Below are positions 6,665-30,272 of a DNA stretch of 30,615 bases, piece after piece; positions within the stretch are counted from its first letter, which is position 1, and every line of letters begins with the position of its first letter. The DNA is taken from positions 1 to 30,615 of IMG/VR virus record IMGVR_UViG_3300010370_000154; one strand, 5' to 3'. Source of the DNA: a virus. Made by a program: the position numbers and the translations under genes. The notes beneath the pieces are model-generated. The model was not told the origin of the DNA. It made no database searches and was given only the letters and a program-made list of their open reading frames with translations.

Positions 6665-9446
6665 CTGATTGCTCTTTTGGTTGGTCGTGCTCTTCGAATG
6701 CGGCGTCCCAACTGTTGGGCGAACTGGCCCAGTCTATAGGTGAGGGCAACCTATTCTTACCGGAAGCTGCACGATCAGTCGAGATATCGAAGGGTTTTAA
6801 TCGTATTCCGGTGACTACAGCTTTTCCGTTGATGTACTTAGCTGTGATTCCGGGGATCTTGATTACGTTGTTGGTTGTCTCCTTCAGTCGGTCGACGAAT
6901 CGCGGCTTAGCGCTGTGCTTGTAACCGTTAGATTTGCAATAGTTCACGTAGGAGGCATACACTTCTGAGTATGCGTTCTTAACGTATAGACCTCGTTCGG
7001 ACTCATCGATGGTTGGCCGGAAGGCACCACCGCCCAGGATCGTGTGGGCATTAGGTGCATAGAGGCAGCAGTCAGCCATCCATGCGCAGATCGGGTTGTT
7101 GAATACCAGAGCGTCGAGGTTAGAGGTGTTCAGGTCTGGGCAATACTTAACCGGGTTTGCGAGTACATCTCGCATCTCCTCGTAAGGCATATCGATCAGC
7201 CATTTAGCCACGCCGGGCAGTTCTGCTGCGAATTCACCTTCGATTCGGTCGGGGAACACACTGATCAGGTTCCGCCGCTTCGAGGGGTCCACCACCCGAT
7301 CCATAACAATGGTCAGACGGCGGCGTTCGAGACCAGAGCTGATGTCTGAGCTGCTGATGTGCTCGTTACTCGCGATAGAGACCAGCAGTTCGGGTTTGAA
7401 GTTGACGATCTCCTTTCCGTACTTCCGCTCTGCTCGAAGGGTATCGCTCGATGACGTGAGCTTCTTAAGGGTGTCGAGGCGCTTACTGAACGATGCTTCG
7501 TCGGTCAGGAGCAGCAGTCGTTTGCCGATAAGGCTATGGCACTCGAACCTGTTTGTTTCGATGGTTTCTAGGTCAGACGTGTGCGTTCCGGTGTAGCCGG
7601 CCAACGCGATCAGAACCTGCTGCAGCGTGGACTTACCCGAACCGCCAGGGCCAATCAGGTGGAGGAAACGCTCACCTGTTGTGTATCCCGTCAATACAGC
7701 CCGAAGGAAAGCACGGATAATGATCGTCTTGTCCTTCCCGACTGCCCAATCCAACCACTTAAGAAACTCCGGGCAGCTTCCGTTGGTGTCGTAATCAAAC
7801 AGCAGCTTGGTTTGGAAGTACAGATCCTTGTGATTTCCGGGCTCGAAGTCGAGCGTGGCAGCATCGAGAACTCCATTGCGGAAGGGAATCTTGCCCCGGT
7901 TTGATTGCCAGATGGAAGCTCGGCCCGCTTTTACGGACTTAAGAAGCTTGGCTTTTAGGAGCTGATAAACCGAGTTCACTGTTGCCGAGCTGTACTTAGG
8001 CAGTACACCCGCTCGCACAAATGTATCTAAGGTCTTTACAACTCTGCGTTTGATATGCTGTTCATCATTAATAAACCAGACGCCTTCATCTCCATCGTAG
8101 TGAAAGAATTCATCCAGGCTTGAATCGAATAGGAAAGAGTCTCCATAGTTATTTACGATAATATCTGCAATATCGTTCTCACTAAACTGCCTGTTGTTGT
8201 TCTGGATCTGTATTAGCTGCGCAGGGGTATCGGGGGTTGGTGCCGTTGTCATTTGTTTTGATGTTGATGTTGATTTTGTTTTGTTCTCGACCTTCTGGTT
8301 GGCGGGTTTCTCCGAGGTCAGCTCGAAAGTGAGAACGGAATTAACAGGCTTCGGCCGCGTGGCCTTGATCTGATCCTTAATGTCGTCAGGACAATTCGAT
8401 TCAAATACATCCCGACTGTAATATTTTACCTTTTTCCAGGCGGCTAATTCACCGTCCTGGGAGGCCATGGTCACTGCGGGTCGCAGGTTCGGCGCGTCGT
8501 AAATGCTGCCGAGGATCCGGTTGAATTTGCCGTCTAGCTCCGGGGCGTACTCGTATATACAGTAGAAGAGTCGGTTCGAAATGTCAAGAGGTGCCTCGGT
8601 GACCGCGATCTTTTGTTCCCTCAGCCAGTTGCTCCATCCGATCAGTTCTTTCAGCGCCATCGCCATAGCGAAGGATCGATCCTCCACCGCTCCTCCTTCG
8701 AGGATGTGCCTGACCTGGGCGCTCAGCAGCGGTTCGAGCTGTAACCCATCTGGGTCAACGTCGATCTTTAGGCAATCAAGGGGATCGGCGTCCTCAGTTT
8801 CAGTCTTTGGTATCGCTACATAAGCCTGGAACGCCTCTTGAATCTTTTTAATTGGTATGTATTTATCTGTGAGCTCTATAAGTTCCGTGCCCTCTTTAGC
8901 TCCGTAGAAGAGGTTAACTGTCGATGTCGCCCTGAAGTCTGATCCAGGAATCTTTTTGGCGATTTCCTGCGTGAGCCACCTGTGGAAGCTCGGGTCTGTT
9001 ATCGGTTGCTCTAACCCAAAAACTAATCGGAATCGAGGCCAATCTTCAGCGTTACTGGGTGAGTAGTAGGCGAACGATAAGTACTTTTGGCATATCTCGA
9101 TGCCGCTAATCTCTTCTACGGTTAACTGAATGTCTTTGATTTTATTACCGTTTTCATCCTTACCATCAGCTTGATTATCGATATCGATGATAATTAAGCC
9201 TGCTTTTATCGCATTAGTTTCTCCTTTTACTCGTTTTCCGCCCACAAGGTGCCAAGCACAGAGCCCCGCACCCGCTAAGACCTCCTCGGAAATGGTTTTA
9301 ATATCCTTCTCACAGGCTTCCCAGTTAGAGTTAAATGCTCCAAAATTTCCCCCTTCCGGAATCTTGCCCAGCTTCGGGCTGATGTGCTTTTTGACTTCGA
9401 AATTCCGGGAGTAGAGAAAGTCCATAGTCTGAGCGCGTGGTGCCAT
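6657..9446 (-). CDS. D5-type primase-helicase (AEP-like primase plus SF3 helicase)
   Basis: 929 residues. The N-terminal part (about 80-220) resembles an archaeo-eukaryotic-type primase: a strand GLIIIDIDN holds the metal-binding D-x-D (about residue 86), followed by YLSFAYYSPSN, WPRFRLVFGLE and TVNLFYG. After a Thr/Ser/Pro/Lys-rich linker (about 370-410) comes a D5_N-like region (SFLFDSSLDEFFHYDGDEGVW) and a helicase superfamily 3 ATPase: Walker A GPGGSGKST (about 600), Walker B LLLLTDEA (about 648), and motif C/sensor SIASNEH (about 700), then an Arg-rich SGLERRR. It should synthesise primers and unwind DNA at phage forks. Members with this fusion occur in many phages. The ATG sits inside a 6-bp inverted repeat. 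Confidence 0.92.
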   Translation of the reverse strand: MAPRAQTMDFLYSRNFEVKKHISPKLGKIPEGGNFGAFNSNWEACEKDIKTISEEVLAGAGLCAWHLVGGKRVKGETNAIKAGLIIIDIDNQADGKDENGNKIKDIQLTVEEISGIEICQKYLSFAYYSPSNAEDWPRFRLVFGLEQPITDPSFHRWLTQEIAKKIPGSDFRATSTVNLFYGAKEGTELIELTDKYIPIKKIQEAFQAYVAIPKTETEDADPLDCLKIDVDPDGLQLEPLLSAQVRHILEGGAVEDRSFAMAMALKELIGWSNWLREQKIAVTEAPLDISNRLFYCIYEYAPELDGKFNRILGSIYDAPNLRPAVTMASQDGELAAWKKVKYYSRDVFESNCPDDIKDQIKATRPKPVNSVLTFELTSEKPANQKVENKTKSTSTSKQMTTAPTPDTPAQLIQIQNNNRQFSENDIADIIVNNYGDSFLFDSSLDEFFHYDGDEGVWFINDEQHIKRRVVKTLDTFVRAGVLPKYSSATVNSVYQLLKAKLLKSVKAGRASIWQSNRGKIPFRNGVLDAATLDFEPGNHKDLYFQTKLLFDYDTNGSCPEFLKWLDWAVGKDKTIIIRAFLRAVLTGYTTGERFLHLIGPGGSGKSTLQQVLIALAGYTGTHTSDLETIETNRFECHSLIGKRLLLLTDEASFSKRLDTLKKLTSSSDTLRAERKYGKEIVNFKPELLVSIASNEHISSSDISSGLERRRLTIVMDRVVDPSKRRNLISVFPDRIEGEFAAELPGVAKWLIDMPYEEMRDVLANPVKYCPDLNTSNLDALVFNNPICAWMADCCLYAPNAHTILGGGAFRPTIDESERGLYVKNAYSEVYASYVNYCKSNGYKHSAKPRFVDRLKETTNNVIKIPGITAKYINGKAVVTGIRLKPFDISTDRAASGKNRLPSPIDWASSPNSWDAAFEEHDQPKEQSDD

Positions 9447-19624: not shown

Positions 19625-21175
19625 TCATCGAAGACATTTCTGGATAGAGTCTACTGTTGTTTCGTTGTTACGTAAGTCGACAGAGTAGACCTCGTCACTA
19701 AAGTCTTTACAAACAGCGGGCACTGCCATGTTGATGCAGATCGTAGACCACTGTGTTCCTGTTTCATTTTTGAAGTGATTCAGTCTCCTCTTGAAATTAT
19801 CGTTTACTTCTGAGTTACCGTCAGTAATAAGCAATACATCAGCGCGTTCTCCGACGACCCCTTTGCTGACCGCGTGGGCAATCACCTCATTAAAACTTGT
19901 ACCTCCCCCGAGTGTCCAGTCACCGATGAATTCAATGAGCTCTTTGTTGTTTTTACGATCGCCAGCCAGTACAACAGATTCCTGTATACGTGTGTCGAAT
20001 AGATGTATACGTACTTCACGTTTCTCCTTCATTGCTTCTTCTGCAACAACAAAAGCGATTGCTTTGCTCCAGATCTCCGCATCTCCCGACATCGAACCCG
20101 ATACATCGACATACAGTACGATCGGACCCTTACCCTGATCTTTTAGGTTTGCTGTGTAATCCTTAGTTAATAGAGTCTTTTGGGAGTATTTTAATGCAAA
20201 CAGAGCCCGCCCTTGCGGTGTGTTAGCTAAAGCAATTTCCGTAGGGAAAGCTTTAGTTAGATCATCGCTGAATCGTGCGCCCGTGATTGCTTCGTAATTC
20301 GCAGATGCTTTCTTTGCCCTTTTGCGTTCCTGCCATACTCTCCTGAGCGCCCCTAACCTTTTAACAATCTGTTTAAGGTTTCTGTTATTTTTTAGTTTCT
20401 TAGCCAGTTCCCGTTTCTCAGAAAGGTTTCCTGCTGAGTGACCCTTACCAGAATCTTGTCCAAACAGCTGACTAATACTTTCGTTTATATCGTCGCTGTT
20501 CTTAACAGCTTCGTCTACGACAGCGTGGGTCTGAGGTTGGATAGCTTCACGAGCACTCTGGATTGCTTCATTAATAGCTTGGTTTAAAGCTTTCCCTTGA
20601 GCTCTAGCTTTTTGAGCTGCTTCTTTATCTCCAGCAGCAACAGCTTTTTGATAGTCCTCCCGTAGTTGCTGTAGCTTATTCCCTGCGTTAGTCAACAGTT
20701 CAACGTTGAATTGATTTTGCTCAATTGCTTCCTCAATAATTTCGGAGATACTGTTGATAATGTTGATAGCGTTGTTGCCCGCATTAAACTGCTGTCCGAC
20801 ACTTCTGTGCAGTAGTTCTGGCCACGCAGCTGCTTGAGTTAAATCGCTCATTATTGCCCACCAGATGCCGTTCTCCGGTTTATAGCCTTCAGGGATTGCT
20901 GTGGCATCACCATTACAAACCTTGCGGTAGTAATCCTCGTATGCGTCTTCGGTTACCAACCATGTAACGCTGTCTGCGTTGTACAACCTTTCGAATAACT
21001 CTTTCCCGAACCGTGACAGTTGTTTGATGTTGTAGTGATCTACTAAGTAGTTAACAGTAGGACGAGCGTCACGAATAAAATCATTCCATAGGAAATCCGC
21101 TAAGGCGGAGCACGCCAATGTGAGCGGTTCGTTATCTACGAGTCTTACAAAGTCACTCTGTTTGTTTAAGTTCAT
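19625..21175 (-). CDS. VWA-domain protein (ViaA/CobT-like MIDAS partner of the AAA+ ATPase)
   Basis: 516 residues from the ATG at 21175 (one base after the AAA+ stop; the open frame extends upstream but would overlap the ATPase gene). Residues 1-330 are helical, with a long Gln/Ala/Lys coiled-coil stretch (about 150-240) and a basic region with RLGALRRVWQERKRAKKA. The C-terminal VWA domain (about 345-510) has an intact metal-ion-dependent adhesion site: D-V-S-G-S-M-S-G, T in LGGGTSFNEV, D in LLITDGNSEV. The layout (helical N-terminus, C-terminal VWA, next to an AAA+ of MoxR type) is that of ViaA and of CobT-like proteins. It should use Mg2+ to bind a partner and work with the ATPase as a remodelling chaperone. 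Target unknown. Confidence 0.88.
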   Translation of the reverse strand: MNLNKQSDFVRLVDNEPLTLACSALADFLWNDFIRDARPTVNYLVDHYNIKQLSRFGKELFERLYNADSVTWLVTEDAYEDYYRKVCNGDATAIPEGYKPENGIWWAIMSDLTQAAAWPELLHRSVGQQFNAGNNAINIINSISEIIEEAIEQNQFNVELLTNAGNKLQQLREDYQKAVAAGDKEAAQKARAQGKALNQAINEAIQSAREAIQPQTHAVVDEAVKNSDDINESISQLFGQDSGKGHSAGNLSEKRELAKKLKNNRNLKQIVKRLGALRRVWQERKRAKKASANYEAITGARFSDDLTKAFPTEIALANTPQGRALFALKYSQKTLLTKDYTANLKDQGKGPIVLYVDVSGSMSGDAEIWSKAIAFVVAEEAMKEKREVRIHLFDTRIQESVVLAGDRKNNKELIEFIGDWTLGGGTSFNEVIAHAVSKGVVGERADVLLITDGNSEVNDNFKRRLNHFKNETGTQWSTICINMAVPAVCKDFSDEVYSVDLRNNETTVDSIQKCLR

Positions 21176-21176
21176 G

Positions 21177-22364
21177 TCACTTGGTGATGTCGTTGATGGC
21201 TCGGGCCAGTGTTTCGCAATGGGTTTGCAACTGCTGTACAAGCTTTACACCCTTTGATCGGGTGGATACGCTCATTTTGAATGTATTTCCATCGAGAATC
21301 TCATTTACTTTTTCCACGACGGTAGTCATATCCCTGTGATACTTACGAAGGGATATCACATCATCGTTTAGTTCCGATAGTCCACGAGCCTGCATTCGAT
21401 GACTGCGACTTGAGAACTCTGCCATAATTCCTGCTGCTGCACGTTTGGCATCTGCAAAAATTCGATCGGCTGTGGGGATCTCCTGCTCTAGCACTTCCCG
21501 GATGATCTGCTGATCCTCCTGTGTTTGGTACACAATGTGAACTAACGAGTCGTGCATATGCTCTGGGTGAAGTACATCGTCACCTTGAACAACAGCCCAC
21601 GCTCTCAAGAATTTGAGGATTTGAACTCGGCGGCGATCTGAGATTACGATGCTACGGGATTCGAGTGCCTGCCAAACACAGCTAAACTTTTCCAGGAACT
21701 CATCGGAGATTTTAATTTCTCCTGTTTGTTCTTGCAGTTCCTTTAGTTCCGCTAGCGTTAAGTGCTCTCCTACCTTTGGTCTGTCCTCCATCCCCAGCCC
21801 CCAAGCATCCAGAAGCCCCTTGGACGCTGGTTTCTTAAGTGCTTCGACCGTGGGGCGAAACAAGAATCGATCCGCAAACGCTTGCAGTGATTCTTCATCC
21901 GGCCAACTATTTGTCGCAGCGATTATGGATTGGATTGGTGTTTCTATATTTATCTTACCGTTATTGAATGTCCGCTCGTTCAGTAGCGTCAGCAAAGAGT
22001 TGAGGATGGCAGAGCTTCCGCGAAAAAGCTCATCAACAAAAGCGATGTGAGCGGAGGGCAGGTAACCCTCAATGTCTCTTGTATATTCGTCGTTCAACAG
22101 TTTGCTCACTGCGACTGGACCGAATACCTCAGATGGATCCGTTGTAGGAGTCAATAAATAACCGAAGTAGTTAGCTTCAGTAATGCCGCCACACAAACTG
22201 CGGACTAAGTCGGACTTTCCTGTGCCCGGTTTACCTAGTAAGAAGGCGTTCTGTTTACTCAATAATGACGCGAGAAGACCATCGATGATGTGCTCTCGCT
22301 CAAGTGTTGCGGCGTTAAGCGCTCCGCGAAACGATTGAAGCTTCTGGAAAAGTTGGTCCTGCAT
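21177..22364 (-). CDS. RavA/MoxR-family AAA+ ATPase
   Basis: 395 residues from the ATG at 22364 (the frame is open 60 bases further upstream, but that extension covers the 69-aa gene and has no better start). Walker A LLGKPGTGKSDL (G44-S51), a strand YLLTPTTDPSEVFGPVAVS that is typical of MoxR/RavA, Walker B HIAFVDELFRGS (D111-E112), AILNSLLTLLNERTFNNGK, sensor 1 AATN (N152), and later an Arg-rich SDRRRVQILKFLRAW helix. Residues 250-395 are helical. The order and wording of these motifs match RavA more than CobS or DnaC-type ATPases. Forms a pair with the VWA gene (one-base gap) and probably works on protein complexes. Confidence 0.9.
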   Translation of the reverse strand: MQDQLFQKLQSFRGALNAATLEREHIIDGLLASLLSKQNAFLLGKPGTGKSDLVRSLCGGITEANYFGYLLTPTTDPSEVFGPVAVSKLLNDEYTRDIEGYLPSAHIAFVDELFRGSSAILNSLLTLLNERTFNNGKINIETPIQSIIAATNSWPDEESLQAFADRFLFRPTVEALKKPASKGLLDAWGLGMEDRPKVGEHLTLAELKELQEQTGEIKISDEFLEKFSCVWQALESRSIVISDRRRVQILKFLRAWAVVQGDDVLHPEHMHDSLVHIVYQTQEDQQIIREVLEQEIPTADRIFADAKRAAAGIMAEFSSRSHRMQARGLSELNDDVISLRKYHRDMTTVVEKVNEILDGNTFKMSVSTRSKGVKLVQQLQTHCETLARAINDITK

Positions 22365-24894: not shown

Positions 24895-25125
24895 TTAGTC
24901 CACAGGGTTTTCCTCTCGATAGGAGAGATGCTCCTCCGCTGCTTTGGATACGTTTAGCCCTCGTTTGTAGCTGAGCTGGATTGACGGACTCAGTTGCAGG
25001 TTGTTGTCGTTTTCGAAGTGCTTATACCGAATCATTAGTTCGTCTCTTACCTTGTCGAGAAACTTGTAGTAGTTGGGATCAAGAAGGGCGTTCTGCACTG
25101 AATTTACGGTGTTGTTCGAGAGCAT
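24895..25125 (-). CDS. Hypothetical protein (76 aa)
   Basis: Not recognised. Helical N-terminus (VNSVQNALLDPNYYKFLDKV, then RDELMIRYKHFENDNNLQLS) and a polar end. Its 5' part overlaps the previous gene by 47 bases, so a later start (for example ATG 31 codons in) cannot be excluded. No Shine-Dalgarno. Confidence 0.5.
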   Translation of the reverse strand: MLSNNTVNSVQNALLDPNYYKFLDKVRDELMIRYKHFENDNNLQLSPSIQLSYKRGLNVSKAAEEHLSYREENPVD

Positions 25126-25315
25126 CGTGGAAGATCAATTGCAATTGTTGGAAGTAATCAAGACTCTCCTGAATCGGTTCTTTTAATGCTGTTTGATCTA
25201 GTTCCTCCAGGGATGCTTTGTACTGTTTCATGATGTTCTTTATCTGCGCGGAGACGCTTTCCGTTTCCTCCTTAGTTAGATAGACAGGGATTCTGTAGTT
25301 TGAGAACTCTAGCAT
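25079..25315 (-). CDS. Hypothetical helical protein (78 aa)
   Basis: Start placed at ATG 25315 (the frame to 25366 would include the preceding hairpin leader). Begins MLEFSNYRIPVYLTKEETES, followed by VSAQIKNIMKQYKASLEEL and LDYFQQLQLIFHDALEQHRK, all helical. Not recognised. The upstream region from 25345 carries GGCTCCGCGCAAGCGG, a diverged copy of the hairpin leader seen at 28121-29759. Confidence 0.6.
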   Translation of the reverse strand: MLEFSNYRIPVYLTKEETESVSAQIKNIMKQYKASLEELDQTALKEPIQESLDYFQQLQLIFHDALEQHRKFSAERPS

Positions 25316-25375
25316 TGGAGGATGGTAGTGACACTTGAGTGTAGTCTGTGCGTCGGCTCCGCGCAAGCGGTTGGG

Positions 25376-25851: not shown

Positions 25852-26001
25852 TCAGATTTTGTCGTTAGGAACTAGAAACCAAGCAACGAAAAAACCGATA
25901 ATGATGCAATAAGGGGCGATGGGCAGTGTCGTTGTACCGCCCAGCACCATCAAAACGAAGGACAGAACGAAGAAAAGATTGTTTCGTTGAGATTTAGTCA
26001 T
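25852..26001 (-). CDS. Small two-helix membrane protein (49 aa)
   Basis: Starts MTKSQRNNLFFVLSFVLMVL and continues GGTTTLPIAPYCIIIGFFVA, then WFLVPNDKI. Two membrane helices (about residues 9-22 and 29-43) with a short Pro-containing turn. The ATG of 26001 overlaps the preceding gene by eight bases (ATGACTAA), which supports this start over one 36 bases upstream. Membrane location is inferred from hydrophobicity; no function is known. Confidence 0.65.
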   Translation of the reverse strand: MTKSQRNNLFFVLSFVLMVLGGTTTLPIAPYCIIIGFFVAWFLVPNDKI

Positions 26002-26292: not shown

Positions 26293-26616
26293 ATGGCGCG
26301 TCCGATTCCAGTCCCTGATGAGGTTGCTGAGTGGTTGGCATTGTCTGATGTTGAGGATTGTGAGACTCAATCTGGTTTGGTTTGGCGTAAAGATCGCAGC
26401 CGGTTTAAGGCGGGGCAACCAGCTGGTTATCTGTGGCTGGATAAGAACTCAGGTAAACATGTTTGGGTGATTCGGTTTAACTACAAGACGCTGTTAGCTC
26501 GTCGTGTTGTTTACAAGCTCGCGTACGGTATTGATCCGGGAGAGCGTAAAGTCTTCCACAAGGATAACGATTGGATGAACAATAAAGCCAGCAACTTGTA
26601 CCTAGAGGGAAGCTAA
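26293..26616 (+). CDS. HNH-like endonuclease (107 aa)
   Basis: Runs MARPIPVPDEVAEWLALSDV, then QSGLVWRKDRSRFKAGQPAG, a strand/loop GYLWLDKNSGKHVWVIRFNY, KTLLARRVVYKLAYGIDPG and RKVFHKDNDWMNNKASNLYL. The C-terminal part matches phage HNH proteins (A-R-x-V-Y-x-L-x-x-G-x-x-P ... V-F-H-x-D-N-x-x-x-N-N-x-x-x-N-L), with His, Asp and Asn spaced as a finger. It is + stranded within a minus-strand early region, and its 3' end overlaps the next minus gene by four bases. Likely a mobile nuclease inserted here; the AT content is not obviously different. Confidence 0.75.
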   Translation: MARPIPVPDEVAEWLALSDVEDCETQSGLVWRKDRSRFKAGQPAGYLWLDKNSGKHVWVIRFNYKTLLARRVVYKLAYGIDPGERKVFHKDNDWMNNKASNLYLEGS

Positions 26617-26810
26617 GACTCTCCGTAGGAGTCGATCTGTTCTCTGAGTTGGGCGATTGCATCTTGCAGCATATAAGATCTTGCGGATGAAGGTGAATCA
26701 TCGAGAGCACATTCAAGTTGCCAGAGTGTGTCCTTCGCGTCTTCGATTGTTAGGAACGTGTTGGTGCAGTAGGTTACACCGTATTCGTCTTGTTGAGTGA
26801 TGTTGATCAT
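26613..26810 (-). CDS. Hypothetical protein (65 aa)
   Basis: Start placed at ATG 26810 with leader AACTAACACCAACAACACA. Chain MINITQQDEYGVTYCTNTFL, then TIEDAKDTLWQLECALDDSP and a helical C-terminus (YMLQDAIAQLREQIDSY). A short strand then two helices. Not recognised. The 82 bases upstream of the start include a GC hairpin (CCAGCTACGCTGGG) resembling the repeated leader element. Confidence 0.6.
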   Translation of the reverse strand: MINITQQDEYGVTYCTNTFLTIEDAKDTLWQLECALDDSPSSARSYMLQDAIAQLREQIDSYGES

Positions 26811-26859
26811 TGTGTTGTTGGTGTTAGTTAGTGAGGGCGGCCCAGCGTAGCTGGATAGG

Positions 26860-27895: not shown

Positions 27896-28120
27896 TCAAT
27901 CGAAAGTTTCGTTGTACAACTTGACGATTTGTTTGTACATTGTTTCGCACTCTTCGAGTACAGCAGCACAACCAGATTCGGTTAGGTAGTATTCCTTATC
28001 CTCTCGCGCTTTCCATAAGTGACTGCGCCAGTGTGCAGTTGAATCGTGCAGCATGTAGCGCAAGTGTCCTAGTTCTTTCTGATCGAATGTAACTTGAACC
28101 TTGATAACTTTGCTTTCCAT
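27896..28120 (-). CDS. Hypothetical protein (74 aa)
   Basis: Begins MESKVIKVQVTFDQKELGHL, then RYMLHDSTAHWRSHLWKARE and a helical acidic end (CAAVLEECETMYKQIVKLYN). A beta strand followed by helices. Not recognised. Directly behind leader repeat copy 1 (28121-28160), so its translation follows that structure. Confidence 0.62.
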   Translation of the reverse strand: MESKVIKVQVTFDQKELGHLRYMLHDSTAHWRSHLWKAREDKEYYLTESGCAAVLEECETMYKQIVKLYNETFD

Positions 28121-28160
28121 GATGTTTGTGTGATTGTGTGAGTTGGCTCCGCGTTAGCGG
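28121..28160 (-). repeat. Leader repeat copy 1 (hairpin plus AC tract)
   Basis: Forty bases upstream of the 74-aa gene. Reading on the minus strand: CCGC TAAC GCGG hairpin, AGCCAACTCACACAATCACACAAACATC, then ATG. The TAA in the loop is the stop of the 84-aa gene. Differs at two of 40 positions from copy 2. Confidence 0.9.
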
Positions 28161-28408
28161 TTGACCTTAAAGTTGTGTGGGATTGAGCGTGCAAGTGTTG
28201 ACCAAAAGGTCATGCGCTCCCTCTTCCATAATTCCACAGCGTATGTAGCATCGTTCGAGTTGTAGTATCCATAAGTGTGTGCTTCTTCCATGCGCTTTCT
28301 TGCACAATGTGCGATGTTGTAGCGCCTGAGGCTACACAATGTTGCTGGAGGTTCGTATTCATAAGTACACCCATCAGTGTCTATGTATTGAGGCAAAGTG
28401 TTAGTCAT
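28154..28408 (-). CDS. Hypothetical protein (84 aa)
   Basis: Begins MTNTLPQYIDTDGCTYEYEP, then PATLCSLRRYNIAHCARKRM and a Tyr/Arg/Lys-rich helical part, ending HNFKVNR. Not recognised. Its stop (TAA) lies in the loop of leader hairpin copy 1 and its start follows copy 2. Confidence 0.62.
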   Translation of the reverse strand: MTNTLPQYIDTDGCTYEYEPPATLCSLRRYNIAHCARKRMEEAHTYGYYNSNDATYAVELWKRERMTFWSTLARSIPHNFKVNR

Positions 28409-28448
28409 GATGTTTGTGTGATTGTGTGAGTTGGCCCCGCGCTAGCGG
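28409..28448 (-). repeat. Leader repeat copy 2
   Basis: Forty bases upstream of the 84-aa gene, 38 of 40 identical to copy 1. The loop contains TAG, the stop codon of the 134-aa gene. Confidence 0.9.
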
Positions 28449-28846
28449 GAGAGAATTAGAGCTTCGATGTCGATAAATGAATTTGTGTTGTCGTAGTAAG
28501 TAACATCAGCCGACAAACCTTGGCGTGAATCATAGTTAGCGTAGGTAACTTTCATAAACTTACTGGTCATAAGGTAAGCGTAGTGAGTAGTAAGGAAGTC
28601 GAAGATCTCGCTATCGGAATTGATTTCTTCTGTGTCCATAGAGATTGTCAGATTGTCATTGGATAGTTCTACATAGGACTCCAAGATGTCTGCAAACTCT
28701 TCGACTGATTTACAGTCAGCAAGTCCCTCAGGAATCTCATCCTCGTGGTTAGTTAAGTAGTCATAGAGTTGGTGACACAGATCGTTGCCATCAAGAACGC
28801 ACTTAATTGTGCAAGTTGCAGTTGCTGCGTGTTGTGTGTAAGACAT
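28442..28846 (-). CDS. Acidic hypothetical protein (134 aa)
   Basis: Begins MSYTQHAATATCTIKCVLDG, then NDLCHQLYDYLTNHEDEIPE, acid-rich helical middle (EEFADILESYVELSNDNLTI) and a beta-rich end (KVTYANYDSRQGLSADVTYY). Strongly acidic overall. Not recognised. Stop (TAG) lies in the loop of leader copy 2 and its start follows copy 3. Confidence 0.64.
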   Translation of the reverse strand: MSYTQHAATATCTIKCVLDGNDLCHQLYDYLTNHEDEIPEGLADCKSVEEFADILESYVELSNDNLTISMDTEEINSDSEIFDFLTTHYAYLMTSKFMKVTYANYDSRQGLSADVTYYDNTNSFIDIEALILSR

Positions 28847-28889
28847 TGGGTTGTTAATGTGATTGTGTGAGTTGGCCCCGCGTTAGCGG
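28847..28889 (-). repeat. Leader repeat copy 3
   Basis: Shares a 31-base core (GTGATTGTGTGAGTTGGCCC and CGCGTTAGCGG) with copy 2 up to one base; the start-proximal side instead reads TTGTTAAT. It contains the stop (TAA) of the 67-aa gene in its loop. Confidence 0.88.
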
Positions 28890-29086
28890 TTAGGGTTGCA
28901 TGTTGCTGGGTTGATGTTCACCGTGGTGATGTTGCCTTCGATGCACAACAGCGCATCATCAAGTTGGCGGATTGTATCTTGCGAACGATCTGCAAACGTG
29001 TTGGGGAAGTCTTTAGCTAAAGCCAACACACGTTGGCGATAATCAACCAGCGCAAGTCTGAGAATTGATGCATCAATCGTTGTCAT
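28883..29086 (-). CDS. Hypothetical protein (67 aa)
   Basis: Start placed at ATG 29086 rather than 29140, because the longer frame overlaps the upstream gene by 68 bases. Reads MTTIDASILRLALVDYRQRV, then LALAKDFPNTFADRSQDTIR and QLDDALLCIEGNITTVNINP. Helical. Not recognised. Stop (TAA) lies in the loop of leader copy 3. Overlap with the preceding gene is 14 bases. Confidence 0.6.
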   Translation of the reverse strand: MTTIDASILRLALVDYRQRVLALAKDFPNTFADRSQDTIRQLDDALLCIEGNITTVNINPATCNPNR

Positions 29087-29279
29087 TGTCCTTGTAGGTA
29101 ACTGTGTAGGGATGGTGTTGACTGTTGGGGAAGTCTTCATTTACTTCAGGAAGGATGAAGTTGAAGAAGCCAGTCTCTGTGGGAGTGATATCATTCTCCT
29201 CACAGTATTCCAGATAGTCTGAGGGTTCGTAACAGTAAGTGTGCGTTACTGTTATCTCCGCGATGTTAAATGTTTTCAT
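29073..29279 (-). CDS. Acidic hypothetical protein (68 aa)
   Basis: Reads MKTFNIAEITVTHTYCYEPS, DYLEYCEENDITPTETGFFN, then FILPEVNEDFPNSQHHPYTV and an acidic end. Beta strand, helix and strand; Asp/Glu-rich. Not recognised. Overlaps the next gene by 14 bases on both sides, consistent with a compact operon. Confidence 0.6.
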   Translation of the reverse strand: MKTFNIAEITVTHTYCYEPSDYLEYCEENDITPTETGFFNFILPEVNEDFPNSQHHPYTVTYKDNDND

Positions 29280-29448
29280 GAACCCTCAGGGCACAATGGG
29301 AATCGTCCATGTTTGATAATCCGGCATCATGTTTACAACTAGAAACCGTCAAATACTGATTGATTGCGTCGATTGCTGTAACTGACAGACCCAGAATGCC
29401 GGCGTTCAGCACTATGGCGGCGATGATGATAGCTGAATTTCTGAGCAT
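29266..29448 (-). CDS. Single-pass membrane protein (60 aa)
   Basis: Start placed at ATG 29448 so that it does not run into the previous gene. N-terminal MLRNSAIIIAAIVLNAGILG then LSVTAIDAINQYLTVSSC is a good membrane helix (residues 5-27), followed by a Cys/His/Asp-rich soluble end (CKHDAGLSNMDDSHCALRVH). No signal cleavage site is evident. Not recognised. Overlaps the 68-aa gene by 14 bases. Confidence 0.58.
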   Translation of the reverse strand: MLRNSAIIIAAIVLNAGILGLSVTAIDAINQYLTVSSCKHDAGLSNMDDSHCALRVHENI

Positions 29449-29453
29449 TTGAT

Positions 29454-29717
29454 TCACCTGACGTAAGCGATTGTGATGCCACGGTGCAGACAAACATCTT
29501 CGATGATGTCGCGCTTGAGTGTTTCCTCCGTGATGAACTGTTGGGTTTGTTCAGTGTCACGATCAACACTGTTAGATAGTGCGCGGATTGTGATCAGACA
29601 ATTGTCATGCCACTTGCGCAGTTGATCATCAGTCAACATGCATACGAAAGAGTGGAACGTTGTGATGATTGTGTCCACTGATTCTTTGCAGATACGATTG
29701 CGGAATGTGCGGTTCAT
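29454..29717 (-). CDS. Hypothetical protein (87 aa)
   Basis: Reads MNRTFRNRICKESVDTIITT, FHSFVCMLTDDQLRKWHDNC, LITIRALSNSVDRDTEQTQQ, then a helix ending ITIAYVR. Mostly helical with scattered Cys. Not recognised. ATG immediately after leader repeat copy 4 (29718-29759). Confidence 0.62.
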   Translation of the reverse strand: MNRTFRNRICKESVDTIITTFHSFVCMLTDDQLRKWHDNCLITIRALSNSVDRDTEQTQQFITEETLKRDIIEDVCLHRGITIAYVR

Positions 29718-29759
29718 GATGTTGTTAATGTGATTGTGTGAGTTGGCCCCGCGAAGCGG
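29718..29759 (-). repeat. Leader repeat copy 4
   Basis: Same core plus a start-proximal TTGTTAAT side as copy 3, with loop GAA instead of TTA, so the hairpin is CCGC TTC GCGG. Here the stop codon of the 69-aa gene lies just before the hairpin rather than in its loop. Confidence 0.88.
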
Positions 29760-29969
29760 TTAGGTTGCACTCTCTCCGAACATTTGTTCGAACAGAGATG
29801 GTTCGGACTCGTACTTAATCTGTTCGCGCACACGATTAAGCTCAGCCAGTAAAGCCTCGTGCTTAAGTTTCATCTTGTGCAGTTCATTCCAGCTGTGGAG
29901 AATGTCACGCTGCAGGGTGAATTGTTTGTTCACAAGATCATCCAGGAAGTCGAATGTTTCGTTTGTCAT
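29760..29969 (-). CDS. Hypothetical helical protein (69 aa)
   Basis: ATG at 29969, two bases after the stop of the preceding gene. A TTG six bases earlier would overlap that stop and is unlikely. Reads MTNETFDFLDDLVNKQFTLQ, then RDILHSWNELHKMKLKHEAL, LAELNRVREQIKYES and EPSLFEQMFGESAT. A coiled-coil-like helix. Stop (TAA) sits just before hairpin CCGCTTCGCGG of leader copy 4. Confidence 0.62.
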   Translation of the reverse strand: MTNETFDFLDDLVNKQFTLQRDILHSWNELHKMKLKHEALLAELNRVREQIKYESEPSLFEQMFGESAT

Positions 29970-30241: not shown

Positions 30242-30272
30242 GATCAAATTGTGTTGGGTTAGTTACAGTTAA

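Follow-up and report, generated by a model that had tools for sequence, protein, structure and literature searches.

A repeated hairpin-and-tract leader as a candidate portable, Shine-Dalgarno-independent start signal in the small-gene cluster of S-EIV1-related cyanophages

The window analyzed here, a stretch of 30,615 nucleotides (positions 1 to 30,615 of IMG/VR virus record IMGVR_UViG_3300010370_000154), carries a repeated leader element in front of several of its small genes. We propose, giving the idea about an even chance, that the element is a portable translation-start leader that works independently of a Shine-Dalgarno (SD) sequence and is carried with each gene in a polycistronic operon of small genes in S-EIV1-related cyanophages. 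The module would consist, in order, of the upstream stop codon (in the hairpin or up to 11 nt before it), a GC hairpin, GCC, a G-poor tract (RAYTCACACAATYAC), an A/C-rich spacer and the ATG. Such a leader would keep the start codon single-stranded, allowing the ribosome to start without an SD sequence, and because every gene brings its own leader, the cluster could gain, lose or swap 'element + gene' units. Ribosomes would initiate at the element ATGs, and the small-gene cluster is presumably early and polycistronic.

Results

The source phage and its relatives

Judged from its sequence, the window is most probably part of the genome of a Synechococcus-type cyanophage related to S-EIV1. No close DNA match to it was found in the phage collection. 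An 86.6-kb relative, G018, has a DNA polymerase with 68% identity to the one encoded in the window, and G018, G019 and G015 share much of the window's replication module. The terminase of G018 in turn has 51% identity to the one from Synechococcus phage S-EIV1 (KJ410740); no closer cultured relative was found, so a Synechococcus-type host is likely. In the replication module, at 21177-22364 and 19625-21175 (minus strand), an ATPase-family protein (phrog_19600) adjoins a VWA/CoxE-type protein, an arrangement kept in relatives.

Four near-identical copies and two diverged ones

The original prediction held that four gene junctions carry almost the same element, and this is borne out by an 18-nt core, GCCAACTCACACAATCAC, which is exact in all four on the window's minus strand; core matches with up to three mismatches occurred in none of 100 dinucleotide-preserving shuffles. 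A CCGC/GCGG stem lies directly 5' of every core, and an ATG follows 9-12 nt 3' of it. The copies and adjoining genes are as follows.

Copy 1, 28118..28161, minus strand: hairpin CCGC-TAAC-GCGG at 28149-28160, core at 28130-28147, E=4.6e-18; stop TAA of gene 28154-28408 in the loop, then the leader and the ATG (28118-28120) of gene 27896-28120
Copy 2, 28406..28449, minus strand: hairpin CCCGC-TAGC-GCGGG at 28436-28449, core at 28418-28435, E=8.0e-19; stop TAG of gene 28442-28846 in the loop, ATG (28406-28408) of gene 28154-28408
Copy 3, 28844..28890, minus strand: hairpin CCGC-TAAC-GCGG at 28878-28889, core at 28859-28876, E=4.3e-18; stop TAA of gene 28883-29086 in the loop, ATG (28844-28846) of gene 28442-28846
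Copy 4, 29715..29760, minus strand: hairpin CCGC-TTC-GCGG at 29749-29759, core at 29730-29747, E=3.8e-13; stop TAA of gene 29760-29969 just 5' of the hairpin, ATG (29715-29717) of gene 29454-29717
Diverged copy, 25316..25371, minus strand: hairpin CCGC-TTGC-GCGG at 25359-25370, GCC-GACGCACAGACTACACT, a longer leader, ATG of gene 25079-25315
Diverged copy with compensated stem, 26811..26854, minus strand: CCAGC-TAC-GCTGG at 26842-26854, GCC, an A/C-rich leader, ATG of gene 26613-26810
27896..28120, minus strand: ORF of 74 aa, 3' of copy 1, without a family match
28154..28408, minus strand: ORF of 84 aa, family F32, between copies 2 and 1
28442..28846, minus strand: ORF of 134 aa, family F16, between copies 3 and 2
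29454..29717, minus strand: ORF of 87 aa, 3' of copy 4

The placement of the stop codons also agrees with what had been claimed: the upstream stop lies inside the 4-nt loop in three of the four copies (TAA, TAG, TAA) and overlaps the base just 5' of the stem in copy 4. Both of the suspected diverged copies are genuine, the one at 25338-25371 by its score (E=1.7e-10, with a scoring model made from other copies) and the one at 26842-26854 by its paired, altered stem followed by GCC and an A/C-rich leader. At the junction orthologous to the latter, the relative G001 has CCAGC-TCC-GCTGG and the full tract, and a G001 protein 97% identical to the product of 29454..29717 sits upstream of an element instead. 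Copies 1 and 2 (window 28118-28147 and 28406-28435) have TCACACAA twice in tandem within the tract (TCACACAATCACACAA). For the genes adjoining the four copies, family searches gave no convincing match.

As had been suspected, conservation extends to the element as such: at orthologous junctions whose downstream genes share 50-80% protein identity, identity reaches 0.64-0.69 in the tract and 0.87-0.96 in the stem, versus 0.41 at four-fold synonymous sites, with a P value that is only indicative as the pairs are not independent. A single recent tandem duplication, one of the circumstances named in advance as fatal to this idea, is ruled out by the adjoining genes, which are not paralogues. Two copies from one genome resemble each other no more than two from different genomes (0.592 versus 0.584; 191 of 500 permutations as high), by which homogenization within genomes was rejected; the equal likeness suggests constraint, or exchange among members of the group, and not a recent duplication.

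The hairpin is RNA-like, and a stop codon in its loop is optional

Predicted folding and compensatory changes suggest that the hairpin acts at the RNA level. In the alignment of our covariance model R1, seeded with 24 four-base-loop copies only, 98% of cells pair and two pairs are changed on both sides, in an alignment that itself leans towards structure. When leaders were found by TCACACAA and an ORF-opening ATG alone, 44 of 52 had a GC hairpin no more than 26 nt upstream, versus 23% at random positions, and the compensated stems among these include TCCAGC/GCTGGG, TCTCGC/GCGAGG and ACCGC/GCGGT; two leaders (in G024 and G030) have the tract without a hairpin. The predicted probability of the hairpin in its context has a median of 0.98, and the commonest loops are TAAC, TTC, TAC and TAGC. 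As a general feature, the stop codon in the loop on which the original prediction had laid weight does not stand: it is found in 17 of about 80 elements of the family, and in nearly all the remaining ones the stop lies 2-11 nt 5' of the stem. The loop is a common site for the stop without defining the element.

The idea that the hairpin insulates the start codon was rejected, as in-silico removal of its pairs changes start accessibility only from 0.636 to 0.633. Because the start is open without the hairpin in these foldings, mRNA protection or processing, or protein binding, is the more likely function for it. The first of these can be extended into an explanation of the element as such, with the hairpin shielding the 3' end of the upstream cistron or, after cleavage, the 5' end of the downstream one, and so tuning the decay of each cistron. 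A stable hairpin does stand directly 3' of the stop codon at most junctions, and the stem is conserved more strongly than the tract; however, the stem has just 4-6 bp and conservation reaches into the leader, and we consider this explanation unlikely.

The leader lacks Shine-Dalgarno motifs and is predicted to be open

The conserved tract, which follows the hairpin and GCC and precedes the spacer and the ATG, belongs to a leader with a base composition of A.37, C.37, G.09 and T.17 (n=76). None of the 76 element leaders carries GGAG, GAGG, AGGA or AAGG, and SD motifs occur in 12 of the 119 other leaders of the cluster, counts restricted to cluster junctions because genome-wide SD statistics on self-made gene calls are too noisy. 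The start region has an unpaired probability of 0.66, compared with 0.565 in the other leaders of the cluster (P about 1e-6) and 0.556 in coupled starts. Gaps at element junctions are mostly 33-60 nt whereas most other junctions are overlaps or gaps of 2-5 nt; the element therefore appears where coupled translation is unavailable. Other cluster genes are preceded by a further repeated leader type that lacks SD motifs, CTGTAACTAAC(A/C)CCA..CAAT.TGATC-ATG, at about 30242-30270 in the window and in related clusters.

These properties fit known SD-independent starts. Start regions of non-SD genes are unstructured, and in reporters this is enough for initiation (PMC3121790); in cyanobacteria, A/C signals lie upstream of non-SD genes (PMC5397173). 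The element leaders are likewise SD-less and G-poor, lack complementarity to the anti-SD and are predicted to have little structure around the AUG. Unlike the starts in a survey that found no conserved sequence or structural motif (PMC3121790), a specific hairpin and tract are reused here across unrelated genes. Against the start-leader proposal, SD use matching that of the hosts is reported for two marine cyanophages, S-SSM6a and b (PMC6847405).

In 22 of the 27 downstream gene families, the distance between GCC and ATG is divisible by 3 (3.8e-7 if families are independent and frames random). Despite this length, the element leader shows no sign of translation, and where the stop lies outside the loop, the downstream ATG is in frame with it in 15 of 52 cases, which is random. 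We therefore read the triplet-sized leader as the outcome of copying leader and ATG together, with length changes in units of three, and not of readthrough. Programmed readthrough or hopping at CGC-TAA-CGC, which would fuse the adjoining proteins, could draw on the downstream ATG being in frame in 11 of 16 non-redundant loop-stop junctions, but the random frame elsewhere argues against it and 3-nt loops contain no stop; it was rejected on the former ground, and we hold it to be extremely improbable.

Genes are gained and lost together with their leaders

The suggestion that the element marks genes gained as cassettes is supported, and extended to losses, by a mosaic gene order in which single genes, each together with one element, have been cleanly inserted or lost. 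Between families F28 and F07, G028 has an element only (F28-element-F07), G019 has F28-element-F16-element-F07, and G026 has F28-element-(152 aa ORF)-element-F07. Similarly, F10-element-F09 in G002, G005 and G017 appears as F10-element-F16-element-F09 in G007 and as F10-element-(52 aa ORF)-element-F09 in G008. The element precedes all eight members of F16, with varied families upstream.

Such a pattern could also come from a recombination joint or a neutrally spreading intergenic repeat, kept as homologous exchange between phages reuses its copies. Elements do bound cassette insertions and losses; in G030 (L150, about 8534-8790), F39 is inserted between F23 and F38 and brings a second copy of F38's leader, and the multiple-of-3 length from hairpin to ATG suggests that the whole block of leader and ATG is copied. 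However, neighbors at element junctions stay together about as often as those at other junctions of the cluster (0.555 versus 0.587, with heuristic gene families and the large mixed family F00 excluded), by which the element was rejected as a specific breakpoint hot spot; elements are therefore observed joints, not proven hot spots. The lack of homogenization within genomes, and the fact that elements always sit between a stop and a start and on the coding strand, also speak against a joint or neutral repeat, which we regard as quite unlikely. F38 itself retains the tract without a hairpin in G030. Related contigs carry tRNA genes (L034, 17148-17229; L041, 4174-4246, the latter inside the small-gene cluster), and a tRNA-like sequence is located in the F12-F22 gap.

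No sign of a promoter or terminator of the kinds searched for

A transcription element, that is, a promoter, a terminator or an antitermination site of the nut or put kind repeated before genes, would also place a hairpin and a linear tract at gene boundaries, and antitermination sites elsewhere have comparable parts. However, no sigma70-type promoter falls on the four copies (7 sites in the whole region versus 8.2 in shuffles), and the hairpin is followed by GCC and A/C-rich sequence rather than a U run, so that promoter and terminator were both rejected as identities of the element. In addition, the stem compensations favor an RNA structure over a DNA-binding palindrome, and the same clusters have a recognizable sigma70-like promoter elsewhere (TTGACT-16-TATAGT, before F03). 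No match to a T7-like RNA polymerase (PF00940) was found in 12 related records, a search in which control genomes gave no match either. We consider a transcriptional role very unlikely. Hairpins with a U-rich tail are present elsewhere in the clusters, before family F34. The conserved sigma70-like promoter, TTGACTGTTCCGACAGGCATGGTATAGT, lies upstream of F03 within the small-gene cluster in G004, G019, G026, G028 and G030.

The element recurs in a group of related phages

The original prediction had proposed looking for the motif in related genomes, and there the element is found at E<1e-4 in 31 of 32 IMG/VR records, usually in several copies. R1 gives matches in all 32, the weakest of which (G035, E=0.3) is to be counted as element-free. 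Most of these records were picked for carrying the element; G032-G035 were picked via a neighboring protein only, and three of these four have it. In long records read whole, strong copies are confined to one small-gene cluster per genome, and the copies per genome are few and variable in number. Other viral contigs with the element came up in exact-pattern scans. R1 gave no convincing match in S-EIV1 or in further viral contigs totaling 718 kb, and the element was not found in the phage and bacterial-genome collections as searched. An origin from a host genome was rejected, as the exact 20-mer is missing from the bacterial and archaeal genome collection. The only Rfam match in the window region is at chance level and away from the elements, which match no curated covariance model.

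S-EIV1 (L158, KJ410740) has a leader element of its own, GTCCYRAGCATGACRTTAAACTGCT, in seven copies on the minus strand (at 25892, 29142, 30486, 33575, 38782, 39501 and 42985). It fits an H-type pseudoknot, both helices of which show covariation, and has no Rfam match in the loci tested. By exact-pattern scan it occurs in at least 120 stretches of viral contigs, in most cases 24-110 nt ahead of where an ORF starts.

Discussion

The nearest precedents for the element as a cassette joint are the promoter early stem-loops (PeSLs) of T4-type phages, 'mobile regulatory cassettes' (Arbiol 2010 and Comeau 2014, cited in PMC4503421) with a proposed dual role in expression and cassette exchange. Both are repeated, hairpin-bearing intergenic units between small phage genes in shuffled, mosaic regions. 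Unlike PeSLs, the element shows neither a sigma70-type early promoter nor a terminator-like stem-loop with a U run; it has instead a conserved leader that reaches the ATG and lacks an SD, and is unrelated in sequence and phage group. In the haloarchaeal virus HGTV-1, a conserved motif with a TATA-like box and an inverted repeat stands before many ORFs and has been likened to PeSLs (PMC3950731). The element shares with it a repeated unit with an inverted repeat ahead of many ORFs of one virus, but the HGTV-1 motif is promoter-like, whereas no promoter was found with the element and its stem shows RNA-type compensations.

Tract specificity and a near-constant stem exceed what an unstructured leader needs, and a binding partner or copying must therefore be added to the start-leader proposal. 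A binding partner could also be the whole explanation, with the element as a translational operator at which a phage or host RNA-binding protein recognizes the hairpin and/or the tract and switches many small-gene leaders together, a regulon tag and not a bare start signal. In its favor, tract and stem are conserved sequence-specifically across non-homologous genes, and the hairpin is dispensable for opening the start in folding. T4 RegA, gp32 and gp43 are precedents, and the RegA targets and the gene 32 autoregulatory leader likewise place phage translational control in leaders of early or replication genes (PMC3014915); the element differs from these in target sequence and structure. No candidate protein was identified, however, the copies per genome are few and variable, and orthologues of one gene may be element-free (F02 has the element in 3 of 24). 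We regard an operator as possible but doubtful.

Returning to the start-leader proposal, a broader and tentative possibility is that S-EIV1-related cyanophages have lineage-specific, modular structured start leaders that replace SD sequences in the variable cluster and are recognized by a dedicated putative factor. The hairpin and tract would be the form used in this clade and the unrelated pseudoknot-like leader the form in S-EIV1 and many other contigs, and new genes would be plug-and-play. If the start-leader proposal is true, the element explains how unrelated, newly accepted small genes are expressed, as their own start signal arrives with each of them. The element would then offer a defined sequence and structure for the study of SD-independent initiation, where the survey found no motif (PMC3121790), and could mark the variable gene clusters in a cyanophage group that is almost uncultured.
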